Origin: a virus
IMG/VR virus record: IMGVR_UViG_3300025894_001094
Location: 1 to 60,067 of that record
Length of the DNA: 60,067 nucleotides
Reading direction: 5' to 3' (one strand)
The translations under genes and the position numbers were made by a program. This document shows positions 22,815 to 51,519 of the stretch, one piece after another (position 1 is the stretch's first letter; each line of letters opens with the position of its first letter). The notes beneath the pieces are model-generated. The model searched no databases, was not told where the DNA came from, and was given only the letters and a program-made list of their open reading frames with translations.

Positions 22815-23522
22815 ATGGCGTTACCAAAACTTAATGATACCCCAAAATACAGTATTGTGGTCCCTTCAACAAATAAGAAAGTCCGATTCAGACCTTATTT
22901 GGTAAAAGAAGAAAAAGTATTGTTAATGGCAGTTGAAACAGGTGATCAAAAAAATATCATTGAAGCAGTAGTAGACACTATTGCGTCTTGTGTTTATGAC
23001 AAGTTGAACACCGAAGATTTGACTACTTTTGACGTAGAATTTTTATTCACTCAAATCAGGTCGAAGTCATCAGGAGAAACCGTTCCGCTTTTATTAAAAT
23101 GTAGTGAGTGCGAAGTTCCTAATGAAACATCGGTAAGATTAGATGAGTTAAAAATAAAGGTACCAAAAAAGAAAAGTGTGGTTGAATTAAACGACCAAGT
23201 TTCTATGGAGTTACGATATCCACCTTATTCAATATTAACAGATTTTGATTTTGAAGATGAATCATCAGAAGCAACCAGAACATTTAAGTTAGCAGGACGA
23301 TGCATTAAAGCAGTGTTTTATGATGATGAACGTATTGCAAACGAAGATATTACAGAAGATGAGATGCAAGAGTTTTTAGAATCTATGACCACAGAGCAAT
23401 TCAAAGAGTTATCGGATTATATTGAGAGTATGCCAAAACTTTCGCACACAATGAAGTTTGATTGTGTAAGTTGCTCGCATAGCAATGAAATAGTATTGGA
23501 GGGTATGCAAAGTTTTTTTTAG
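22815..23522 (+). CDS. gp26: gp26-like baseplate hub/tail assembly protein (zero-frame product)
   Basis: The 235-aa product opens MALPKLNDTPKYSIVVPSTN and contains RFRPYLVKEEKVLLMAVETG and LTTFDVEFLFTQIRSKSSGE, diagnostic for the T4 gp26 family (T4_baseplate, PF12322). Two CxxC pairs (CSEC and CVSC) flank the middle and suggest a zinc-binding site. The gene ends AGT TTT TTT TAG on a run of eight T, directly followed by an open -1 frame with no start codon near the junction. In other phages the gene upstream of the tape measure makes frameshifted tail-assembly chaperones; the same layout is present here. Confidence 0.85.
   Translation: MALPKLNDTPKYSIVVPSTNKKVRFRPYLVKEEKVLLMAVETGDQKNIIEAVVDTIASCVYDKLNTEDLTTFDVEFLFTQIRSKSSGETVPLLLKCSECEVPNETSVRLDELKIKVPKKKSVVELNDQVSMELRYPPYSILTDFDFEDESSEATRTFKLAGRCIKAVFYDDERIANEDITEDEMQEFLESMTTEQFKELSDYIESMPKLSHTMKFDCVSCSHSNEIVLEGMQSFF
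23513..23520 (+). promoter_or_regulatory. T8 slippery site for candidate -1 frameshift
   Basis: Eight consecutive T bases span the last sense codons and the first base of the TAG stop of the gp26-like gene. Slipping back one base converts TAG into TTA GTT and continues for 61 codons. This is the shape of lambda G/GT-type recoding sites. Confidence 0.65.
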
Positions 23523-23704
23523 TTTCCCTTTCTCATGATACGTTAGTGAACCATTACAAGACGAATTTTGAGTTAGTGTACGCAGACAAATACTCTTTAT
23601 CAGAACTTGATGATATGCTACCTTGGGAAAGGGAAATTTATGTTACAATGCTTACTCAAAGAATAAAAGAAGAGAACGAGAAGAGAAAAAATGGCAATCG
23701 CTGA
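23519..23704 (+). CDS. Frameshift extension of gp26 (gp51/GT-like C-terminal domain)
   Basis: Read in the -1 frame from the T8 slip site, this segment adds 61 residues and makes a 296-aa fusion. It has no ATG until ATG CTA about 90 bases in, so independent translation is unlikely. The peptide contains SELDDMLPWEREIYVTMLTQ and an acidic-basic coiled tail (RIKEENEKRK), the W-E-x-x-Y...ML pattern seen in frameshifted tail-assembly chaperone C-domains. Its end overlaps the tape-measure start by 14 bases. It occupies the place of T4 gene 51, next to gene 26. Confidence 0.7.
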   Translation, partial: LVSLSHDTLVNHYKTNFELVYADKYSLSELDDMLPWEREIYVTMLTQRIKEENEKRKNGNR

Positions 23705-24953
23705 TGCAACAGAAAGTTTAAACTTTACTAATCCTACGGTATTACAAATTAATAACCGTATAGGCATTATTAAAGAAAACGTCGAAGAAGAATTGATTCC
23801 TATTCTGAGAAGTATTGACAAACACTTCGAAAAGTTAACCAAAGCATTGGCATTTAATGCTTTGGAGAATACTGATGAAAAGGATAAAACAAATGATGAT
23901 GGTCCTAAAACACCAGAGGTAGAAGACACCCCGAGTTTCTTTGATAAACTTAAAGACTTTTTTACTCAACTAGGTAAAGCACTTATAAGGTTTGTAGGTA
24001 TTATACTTCCTGCTATCATTGCTGCATTGGGTTTATCCAACATCGGATTTACAGGAAAAGAATTTGCCATGCTTAAAACTATCAGAGCATTTTTCTCTGG
24101 TGGATGGTGGGCAGAAAAACTGAGCAAATTAGCAACGATGTTCAGAGAAAATAAAACTGTAATAGCAATTAAAGAGTTTTTCAGTTCAGGACGAATTGGT
24201 ACAATTATTGATGATGCTATGAAATCAGTTAAAGCATTTTTCTCTATGGAAGGTGATGGTTTAATTGCTAAGGTTTTTAGAGGTCTCAAATCTTTCGGCG
24301 GAAAAATTATGGCAGTATTCGGAAAGATAATGTATCCGATCAGTCTGCTTATGTCTGCCTTTGACGGTTTTATGACTGCATCAGCAGATTTTGAAAAGAA
24401 TGAGAGTATAGTATCTGCCGGTATTAATTTTATAACAGGATTTTTAGCATCTTTTATTGGAACGTTTGTCGATCTAATAAAAGACGGTATTATGTGGTTG
24501 ATTGGCAAACTACCGTTTGTTGAAGTAGACGAAGAAGGTGCGTTTACTAATTCAATACTTAAATTTATCGATGAGAAAGTAAATGTTACAGAAACATTTC
24601 TTAAAATGGGTCAGATATTCAGTGATATCTGGAGTAGTTTTACAACAGCATTAGGTGAGTGGTGGTCAAATTTTAGTCTATGGGATTTTGTTACTGGTGG
24701 CAACACTGCAGAAGATCTCAAAGGAATGGTTACGAATGGTGTAACCTATGGTAAACGAGAAGGACAACAAGAAGAATTAGCAGAGGTCGCAGCAGAAAAA
24801 TCTGATGCATCAGGCGGTGGAATAGTTCAGGTCAATGCACCCACTAATACTACTAATACAACAGATGCCAGCACTTCTAACGTACATGCAGTTGCTGCTA
24901 GTGGAAGTAATCCTAAAGGACCAAGGAAACGACAACGTGGAGGCGGTGCATAA
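23691..24953 (+). CDS. Tape-measure-like tail protein (420 aa)
   Basis: The N-terminus is helical (INNRIGIIKENVEEELIPIL), then comes a strongly hydrophobic segment (LIRFVGIILPAIIAALGL, about 103-120) and long alternating amphipathic and hydrophobic helices (LLMSAFDGFMTASADF, FITGFLASFIGTFVDLI), the signature of tape-measure proteins. The C-terminus is Gly/Thr-rich and basic. It directly follows the frameshifted gp26 unit, where tape-measure genes usually sit. At roughly 1.5 angstrom per residue it would set a tube near 63 nm. T4 gp29 (590 aa) is the functional counterpart, though direct homology is not obvious. Confidence 0.62.
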   Translation: MAIADATESLNFTNPTVLQINNRIGIIKENVEEELIPILRSIDKHFEKLTKALAFNALENTDEKDKTNDDGPKTPEVEDTPSFFDKLKDFFTQLGKALIRFVGIILPAIIAALGLSNIGFTGKEFAMLKTIRAFFSGGWWAEKLSKLATMFRENKTVIAIKEFFSSGRIGTIIDDAMKSVKAFFSMEGDGLIAKVFRGLKSFGGKIMAVFGKIMYPISLLMSAFDGFMTASADFEKNESIVSAGINFITGFLASFIGTFVDLIKDGIMWLIGKLPFVEVDEEGAFTNSILKFIDEKVNVTETFLKMGQIFSDIWSSFTTALGEWWSNFSLWDFVTGGNTAEDLKGMVTNGVTYGKREGQQEELAEVAAEKSDASGGGIVQVNAPTNTTNTTDASTSNVHAVAASGSNPKGPRKRQRGGGA

Positions 24954-25213
24954 TGTCACATAGTCCGGGTCATGGTCGTAGTGCCGCAGTTTTTGTGTTA
25001 TCTTCTTTACCTGCTAATGCCAGAGCAAAAGCAAGTGCTAATCCCAGATCAGTTTTAATATCTGATTTATCTAGTGCTCAACAAGCACAAGCTAACGGCA
25101 AAGATAGTGTAGCAATCGTCGATGGCGATACAGTTACGTATCTAGCACCAACGGGTGATTTTCGTGCCGCATATTTTACGGTAAAAGAAGAGAGAGAATC
25201 TCAGGGGATATAA
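24953..25213 (+). CDS. Small unidentified protein ending the plus-strand late operon (86 aa)
   Basis: The ATG overlaps the stop of the tape-measure-like gene by one base. Composition is Ala/Ser-rich with a short beta-like C-terminal half (SVAIVDGDTVTYLAPTGDF). No motif or family recognised. Its place at the end of the operon, just before a shared hairpin terminator, suggests a minor structural or assembly role. Confidence 0.55.
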   Translation: MSHSPGHGRSAAVFVLSSLPANARAKASANPRSVLISDLSSAQQAQANGKDSVAIVDGDTVTYLAPTGDFRAAYFTVKEERESQGI

Positions 25214-50523: not shown

Positions 50524-50804
50524 ACGTTGATCGTATTCTTTGCTAACCCGTGCTTTTTAATCTGAGCATCGGATAGACCACTAGTTTTGGTCGAATCGGT
50601 TTCGTTTTTCATTTTCTTTAAAAGATCTTTCCAATCGCCAGAAGTCTTGTTAATGATATTACCGGTGTGAGTAACAAGAGAGGGCGAACCAAGAATCTTT
50701 TGCTCCCATTCTCCGCTTGCTACCATCTCTTCCTTTTTAGAAATAGAAATAAACATCTCTGTTATTTCTCCCGTTTCAACATTCATCATGTCATATGTCG
50801 GCAT
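50520..50804 (-). CDS. FmdB-like small conserved phage protein (94 aa)
   Basis: It begins MPTYDMMNVETGEITEMFIS and has ASGEWEQKILGSPSLVTHTG with SGDWKDLLKKMKNE. This resembles a small protein of marine T4-like phages annotated as FmdB-like; the zinc-ribbon cysteines of bacterial FmdB are absent. It lies between phoH and a GT25 gene with overlaps to both. Confidence 0.6.
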   Translation of the reverse strand: MPTYDMMNVETGEITEMFISISKKEEMVASGEWEQKILGSPSLVTHTGNIINKTSGDWKDLLKKMKNETDSTKTSGLSDAQIKKHGLAKNTINV

Positions 50805-51519
50805 TTTTTAAAACCCTATCTAGAATATATTCTTTATTAACCGCGCCCAAAAAATTGTCTCCATGGTCTATCGTGGCACGATACTTAGTTGATACTAGTT
50901 GATATGATCTGTAATGATCACCTTTAACTTGTCCGTATTTCCTCATAATAGTATGTATCAATCCATCAGAATTACGTGTGATGATATTTGACACTGCTTC
51001 ATTTATGAGTATTCGAGCAATTTTAGGTGTGAGGTAATAGGCACCTCCTGCTGTGATATTTCTGCTTTTCTTGGTGCGAATGCAATCTGTGCATTCGCAG
51101 TATTTCGCGCATGCTGGTACACCTGCGGTTGCGAATGCAACGATGGGTTTACAATTGTTGAAGTATGATAGTTTCATGGGATGTATTAGCAGTGCATCGT
51201 GCTCTACTATAATAATGTTTTTATTGTCTTTCCTACATTTGTTCCATAAACTTAAATGAGAATACCACACTGCTTTTTCTGTTAGTGTAATCTCCTCACC
51301 TCTTCTTTTTATTCCTGCTTGATCTCTTTTTCCAAAATTAAGGTGCAATCCACAATACTCTTTGTTTAAAGTGTCTGGTGTGCATGCTTTAAACTCGTTA
51401 ACTTTGAAACCACCTTTTTCCCATGAGGGTTTCACCCTATTTAAATAATATTGTGAAGTTACGTTGTTCTCAATAGCAATTATATAAACTTCTGGTGTCA
51501 CTAAAACGGACTCCCTCAT
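50791..51519 (-). CDS. GT25-like glycosyltransferase, copy 3 (242 aa)
   Basis: TEKAVWYSHLSLWNKCRKDN then IIIVEHDALLIHPM and GGAYYLTPKIARILINEA match the other two GT25 genes, including EHDA. The first six codons lie inside a hairpin; a GTG at 51501 (product VTPEVYIIAIE) has GAGGGAG as ribosome site and may be the true start. A central Cys-rich stretch (ACAKYCECTDCIRTKKSR) is an insert absent from the other copies and could bind zinc. Confidence 0.78.
   Translation of the reverse strand: MRESVLVTPEVYIIAIENNVTSQYYLNRVKPSWEKGGFKVNEFKACTPDTLNKEYCGLHLNFGKRDQAGIKRRGEEITLTEKAVWYSHLSLWNKCRKDNKNIIIVEHDALLIHPMKLSYFNNCKPIVAFATAGVPACAKYCECTDCIRTKKSRNITAGGAYYLTPKIARILINEAVSNIITRNSDGLIHTIMRKYGQVKGDHYRSYQLVSTKYRATIDHGDNFLGAVNKEYILDRVLKNADI

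Follow-up and report, generated by a model that had tools for sequence, protein, structure and literature searches.

Introduction

Lambda G/GT-type -1 frameshifting takes place at the slip heptamer G GGA AAG, and that of Escherichia coli dnaX at the heptamer A AAA AAG, which has a Shine-Dalgarno (SD)-like element approximately 10 nt upstream and a hairpin downstream. Frameshifting of the G-T type is widely conserved in long-tailed phages, T4 excepted (2016 review, PMC5009743). As cited by the authors of PRFect, Vladimirov et al. (2022) described some T4-like phages as having a short gene and a long fused gene (PMC10274946) and, as cited in a paper on Pseudomonas phage Adele, the same work described poly-T slippery sequences in T4-like TAC-N genes (PMC12846349). 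Since both citing papers credit Vladimirov et al., the frameshift phenomenon itself appears from these citations to have been known already. In Adele (Vandenendeviridae), TAC-N ends in a conserved poly-T motif, GTTTTT, at which a -1 shift was placed, and the -1 frame is uninterrupted (PMC12846349).

The DNA analyzed here is an IMG/VR virus record of 60,067 bases, which is referred to at its full length as the window. Because of the conservation of frame, the slippery heptamer, the signals that flank it and the predicted fold of the product, which resembles that of known tail assembly chaperones (TAC), one gene in the window would very likely encode two tail assembly chaperones through a -1 frameshift of the lambda G/GT type at a run of T, a reading that is drawn from sequence comparison.

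Results

Family matches indicated a T4-like gene block in the window, with genes for head closure (21019), DNA end protector (21515) and tail tube (22093) proteins ahead of a gp26-type gene on the plus strand (22815..23522). The 235-aa zero-frame product of this gene (i.e., the N-domain), a putative short tail assembly chaperone (TAC-N) by its family matches and AlphaFold model, matched PF12322 (T4_baseplate) with an E of 5e-61 and phrog_150 with an E of 7.5e-63. This was the single PF12322 gene in the 60-kb record, which is a fragment; the T4-type combination of a separate full-length gene 51 and a short gene 26 was not found there, and the C-domain was present in the -1 frame only. The next gene on the plus strand (23691..24953, 420 aa) probably encodes the tape measure protein, as suggested by its position and by a weak match to phrog_4200, 'tail length tape measure' (E 0.004). 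The equivalent genes of Vibrio phage D485 and phage phiM7 matched phrog_4200 at 1e-6 and 6.5e-5, respectively, and searches of Pfam and NCBIfam gave no match for the 420-aa gene of the window. An 86-aa ORF (24953-25213) between the probable tape measure gene and a minus-strand gene gave no significant match in the family search.

In agreement with the preliminary description of this DNA, the gp26-type gene ends AGT TTT TTT TAG, with eight T at 23513-23520, and a slip of one base backward opens 61 more codons that end just inside the next gene. The candidate slippery heptamer T TTT TTT (23513..23519, plus strand) is contained in the T8 run and is directly followed by the gp26 TAG, and the -1 frame is open from 23489 to 23704. 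The 61-aa post-slip peptide, LVSLSHDTLVNHYKTNF...SELDDMLPWEREIYV...NGNR, is encoded together with its stop codon by 23519..23704 of the plus strand and terminates 14 bases into the next gene (23691). Also as described earlier, the -1 segment has no start codon of its own near the junction, the first ATG being at 23615 and the only candidates before it being GTG codons at 23546 and 23576, neither of which has a Shine-Dalgarno sequence. The earlier assignment of this peptide as a tail-chaperone C-domain was borne out by its match to phrog_634, 'baseplate hub assembly catalyst' (the gp51 family, E 2.3e-23). The -1 segment aligned as well to the last 46 columns of the 282-column phrog_150 profile, which indicates that this full-length profile covers both domains. 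No match for the -1 segment was returned by Pfam or NCBIfam, and Rfam returned nothing in the junction region. Comparison of the -1 segment with its two nearest relatives gave dN/dS values of approximately 0.08 (0.064/0.85 and 0.10/1.27). The full -1 frameshift product (22815..23704, plus strand), a predicted long tail assembly chaperone (TAC-NC) of 296 aa, is colinear with T4 gp51, which is fused in frame, and with the full-length phrog_150 profile. In-frame T TTT TTN was found eight times in approximately 18,200 codons of the window and had a gene-end position only at gp26. An in-frame T TTT TTG near the end of the minus-strand gene 50791-51519 was put down to chance, as only three -1 codons follow it.

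A tblastn search with the fusion matched 1,157 phage records, and the best matches among those listed were all split in two pieces, as two frames predict. Approximately 260 loci from five IMG/VR scans and annotated phage records were compared, with detection of the C-domain by an iterated profile, and the frame of the C-domain was -1 in 247 of the 248 loci that had a C-domain match. The sole exception (L064) contains one extra T compared with a near-identical sister locus (L063). This extra T is approximately 85 nt past the gp26 stop, breaks the -1 frame and looks like a contig error.

Collapse of the loci at 90% identity gave a non-redundant set of 106 (52 clusters at 60% identity), the members of which are related by descent and are not independent trials. 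Conservation of the T run and of the -1 ORF in relatives, put forward earlier as a way to check the proposed slip, was evident throughout this set, as an in-frame T TTT TT[C/T/G] heptamer was present in 106/106 loci, all of which kept the -1 C-domain. The distance from heptamer to stop was 0–9 nt in nearly all of these loci, while two had the heptamer 24 nt upstream. The P-site codon was TTT in every locus, compared with 67% TTT among background Phe codons, and the codon preceding the Phe codons of the heptamer ended in T, again in 106/106. The A-site (second Phe) codon was TTC, i.e., the run was T6 only, in 69/106 loci (65% versus a background of 33%). Homology in the -1 frame began with the first post-slip residue. 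In a pair of Asteriusvirus-type jumbo phages, the zero-frame stop was 3 nt past the heptamer in one and 33 nt past it in the other, and -1 homology extended from the slip in both.

The same layout was found in Kyanoviridae, Chakrabartyvirus pf16, Emdodecavirus phiM7, Menderavirus Ps15, the Straboviridae phages Ah1 and AS-szw, Vibrio phages D485 and F86 and Asteriusvirus-type jumbo phages. In jumbo phages of the latter type (L095, L261 and L262), the gp26-like gene, which is nameless in the record, was noted to contain T TTT TTC, and approximately 70 aa of conserved sequence follow in the -1 frame. A -1 C-domain without the canonical heptamer was noted in Salmonella phage ISTP3 (Ackermannviridae; L265, 3190-3420), with the sequence ATT TTC ATT TAA, and in Vibrio phage D506 (L094, 4040-4260), with the sequence CTT TTC AAG TAA and TAATG at the junction. 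Thus, some members of the wider family lack the canonical slip site.

Two signals that flank the slip site, an SD-like element and a hairpin, were shown to be conserved across the family beyond codon constraint, and both were present in the window. The former, a putative stimulator of the slip, is an internal GGAGGG (23498..23503, plus strand) located 9 nt upstream of the heptamer. Among the 106 loci, anti-Shine-Dalgarno pairing upstream of the slip exceeded that of synonymous shuffles (z -11, 0/100), and SD 4-mers, which were GAGG-like, ended 8–10 nt before the heptamer in 143 of 154 occurrences. Codon choice was skewed at the corresponding positions, with GAG for Glu at position -4 in 52/66 (versus 28%) and GGG for Gly at position -3 in 27/101 (versus 6%).

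The latter signal, also a putative stimulator, is a predicted hairpin downstream (23528..23576, plus strand) with a folding energy of -11.1 kcal/mol, for which z was -1.97 against dinucleotide shuffles and -2.96 (0/60) against the synonymous null. The two nearest relatives (L004 and L005) do not share this hairpin. Over the loci as a group, folding energy departed most from that of dinucleotide shuffles at 0 to +12 nt (mean z -1.27 and -0.99, compared with approximately 0 to -0.8 elsewhere), and the mean z against the synonymous null was -1.94 at +6. By synonymous shuffles, a hairpin of p<=0.05 was noted in 54% of loci as opposed to 5–16% in gene-26 controls. Hairpins varied by lineage, with energies of -25.7 kcal/mol for S-WAM1, -24.3 kcal/mol for pf16 and approximately -13 to -19 kcal/mol for the P-SSM2 group. 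The strength of SD-like pairing was positively correlated with hairpin stability (Spearman 0.36, p 1.5e-4), which may reflect base composition.

An alternative to frameshifting is independent translation of the C-domain as a small gene apart from gp26, from its own start codon or by re-initiation past the gp26 stop. GenBank records do annotate gp51 on its own, and a stop-start overlap (TAATG or TGATG, which provides a -1 ATG) was present in 7/106 loci (e.g., L010, Vibrio phage D485 and S-CRM01) and also in D506. However, no -1 ATG occurred within 45 nt past the slip in 60/106 loci and no ATG, GTG or TTG within 30 nt in 31/106, and this frequent absence of start codons argues against re-initiation. 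In many loci, a -1 stop is present just upstream of the slip, and the -1 frame opens approximately 7 nt before the gp26 stop. The annotated starts of gp51 also vary between GenBank records, some of which omit the gene, and in the window the earliest candidate (i.e., GTG 23546, which lacks a Shine-Dalgarno sequence) lies beyond the conserved LSHD motif. Conserved residues start at the slip. A separate gene, which moreover leaves the invariant in-frame heptamer unexplained, was considered very unlikely on these grounds. In the minority of loci with TAATG or TGATG, re-initiation could supply an extra free C-domain.

Less likely again was slippage of RNA polymerase on the T8 run, in which the addition of a U would produce a mixed mRNA population. 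A run of T8, as in the window, is long enough for some slippage by polymerase, but the run was limited to T6 followed by C in the 69/106 loci with TTC as the A-site codon, and the enrichment of this codon argues against such slippage. The junction carries, in addition, signals that act on ribosomes, namely the SD-like element, the hairpin and the tandem register X XXY YYZ. Hardly any credence was given to the idea that a sequencing or assembly error in the T run had split a gene for the fused long form since, for all that homopolymer runs are error-prone, the junction with its T run is identical in three separate IMG/VR contigs (L001–L003), and comparative data already refute this explanation, the frame relation and the heptamer being kept in more than 100 divergent relatives.

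The identity of the products that a ribosomal -1 shift would give was approached through their predicted structures. The AlphaFold model of the short form had a pLDDT of 90.7, and residues 1–96 of this model matched the solved structures 3fgx (Z 8.1), 2ob9 (Z 7.3) and 3klu (Z 7.1), followed by a fourth match to a PICI-like element (Z 4.5) and remaining rows of 2.8 or less. Values of Z of 7–8 are near the level of common structural arrangements, and the argument lies in the membership of the top three in one functional class. The structure 2ob9 (HK97 TAC; Foldseek E 0.2, probability 0.95) is called a tail assembly chaperone in its PDB title, and 3fgx and 3klu are structures that we take to be tail chaperones. 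These comparisons showed the predicted fold of the N-domain to be TAC-like. T4 gp51 and the gp26 of the window, used as queries against PDB sequences, found no real relative. The C-domain model (pLDDT 74) gave no fold match of Z 2 or more, a negative of no evidential weight, and Pfam linked the C-domain to no other TAC family.

Genes 26 and 51 of T4 are on opposite strands. The preliminary description had treated T4 gene 51 as the C-domain alone, which is incorrect: T4 gp51 is a full N+C protein, composed of PF12322 and the C-domain, and it is T4 gp26 that consists of PF12322 only. In keeping with this, phrog_150 aligned with T4 gp51 end to end (3-248 on 13-280) and with T4 gp26 over the first part only (14-235). 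The end of T4 gene 26 (L081, 3303-3320) reads GAG TTC TTT GAG TTA CTA TAA and, since the relevant codons are TTC TTT, the heptamer has been lost while the FF residues have been kept. In a midpoint-rooted tree of N-domains, for which long-branch warnings were returned, the T4-type 26 and 51 proteins clustered against all frameshift lineages (ultrafast bootstrap 97, SH-aLRT 93), and duplication therefore seems to have replaced the frameshift. T4 thus appears to be a derived duplication, as gp51 is the full long form, gp26 a short paralogue and the two genes are on opposite strands. The simplest reading of these sequences is that the replacement took place on the T4 branch. T4 and its close relatives obtain the short form from gene 26 and the long form from gene 51, a duplicated pair. 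Enterobacter phage EC-F2 (Pseudotevenvirus; L267, 2501-3794) was noted to have a long and an apparently short chaperone gene in tandem on the same strand, unlike T4, whose pair is divergent.

Discussion

There is strong support from sequence comparison, signals at synonymous sites and the predicted fold for the -1 frameshift, the identity of the products as tail chaperones and the parallel with lambda G/GT. As regards the G/GT/H layout that the preliminary description had recognized, the G/GT part is thus upheld, and the identity of the tape measure protein is weak (phrog_4200, E 0.004). In the mechanism that we propose, most ribosomes would terminate at TAG and release the 235-aa short form, while a minority, with Phe-tRNAs on TTT TTT, would shift one base back. 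This slip would be aided by pairing of GGAGGG, 9 nt upstream, to 16S rRNA and possibly also by the downstream hairpin and the adjacent stop codon. The shifted ribosomes would then translate 61 more codons to give the 296-aa long form. On the analogy of lambda gpG/gpGT, coating of the tape measure protein would fall to the short form and recruitment of tail tube subunits to the added C-domain. That slippage takes place, how efficient it is and what the two forms bind are inferred.

Most T4 relatives that were sampled carry the frameshift signals, so T4 looks like the derived case. The frameshifted chaperone is a common arrangement in the wider T4-like family, and T4 seems to have two separate genes instead. 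It appears fairly probable, from the sequences compared, that gp26-type chaperones in T4-like and several other large myophages were ancestrally expressed through the -1 frameshift, with the SD-like element and a hairpin that varies by lineage, and that T4 lost this system once by gene duplication. The suggestion that T4 genes 26 and 51 are ancestrally one frameshifted gene was therefore right in direction but not in regarding them as two halves of a split gene, as gp51 has both domains. In cyanophages, what is annotated as a separate 'gp51 baseplate hub assembly catalyst' very probably represents the shifted tail of gp26, in which case annotated gp51 starts are unreliable. The family also offers a large natural set in which to learn how the SD-like element, heptamer, hairpin and stop codon set the -1 ratio.

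Among known systems, the T4-like TAC genes of Vladimirov, Gautam and Davidson (2022, Virology 566:9), so far as the citing papers describe them, belong to the same protein families as the gene of the window. In T4 itself, the homologue of the short form is gp26 and that of the long form gp51 (PF12322 and the phrog_634 C-domain), but these come from two paralogous genes on opposite strands, and the end of gene 26 lacks the heptamer. The TAC of Vandenendeviridae resembles that of the window in its -1 shift and in the poly-T motif at the end of TAC-N, and differs in that it belongs to another phage family. The gene shares with E. coli dnaX an upstream SD-like element, a heptamer and a downstream hairpin, although the frameshift product is shorter in dnaX and longer in the window. 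The likeness to lambda gpG/gpGT lies in the short and long chaperones that would come from one gene by a -1 slip upstream of the tape measure gene, which in the window is a probable one, and extends to the predicted fold of the N-domain, which is of the HK97 TAC type. In contrast with lambda, the heptamer is T TTT TTN, the slip site of the window abuts the stop codon and is accompanied by internal SD-like and hairpin signals, and the N-domain is extended to approximately 235 aa.
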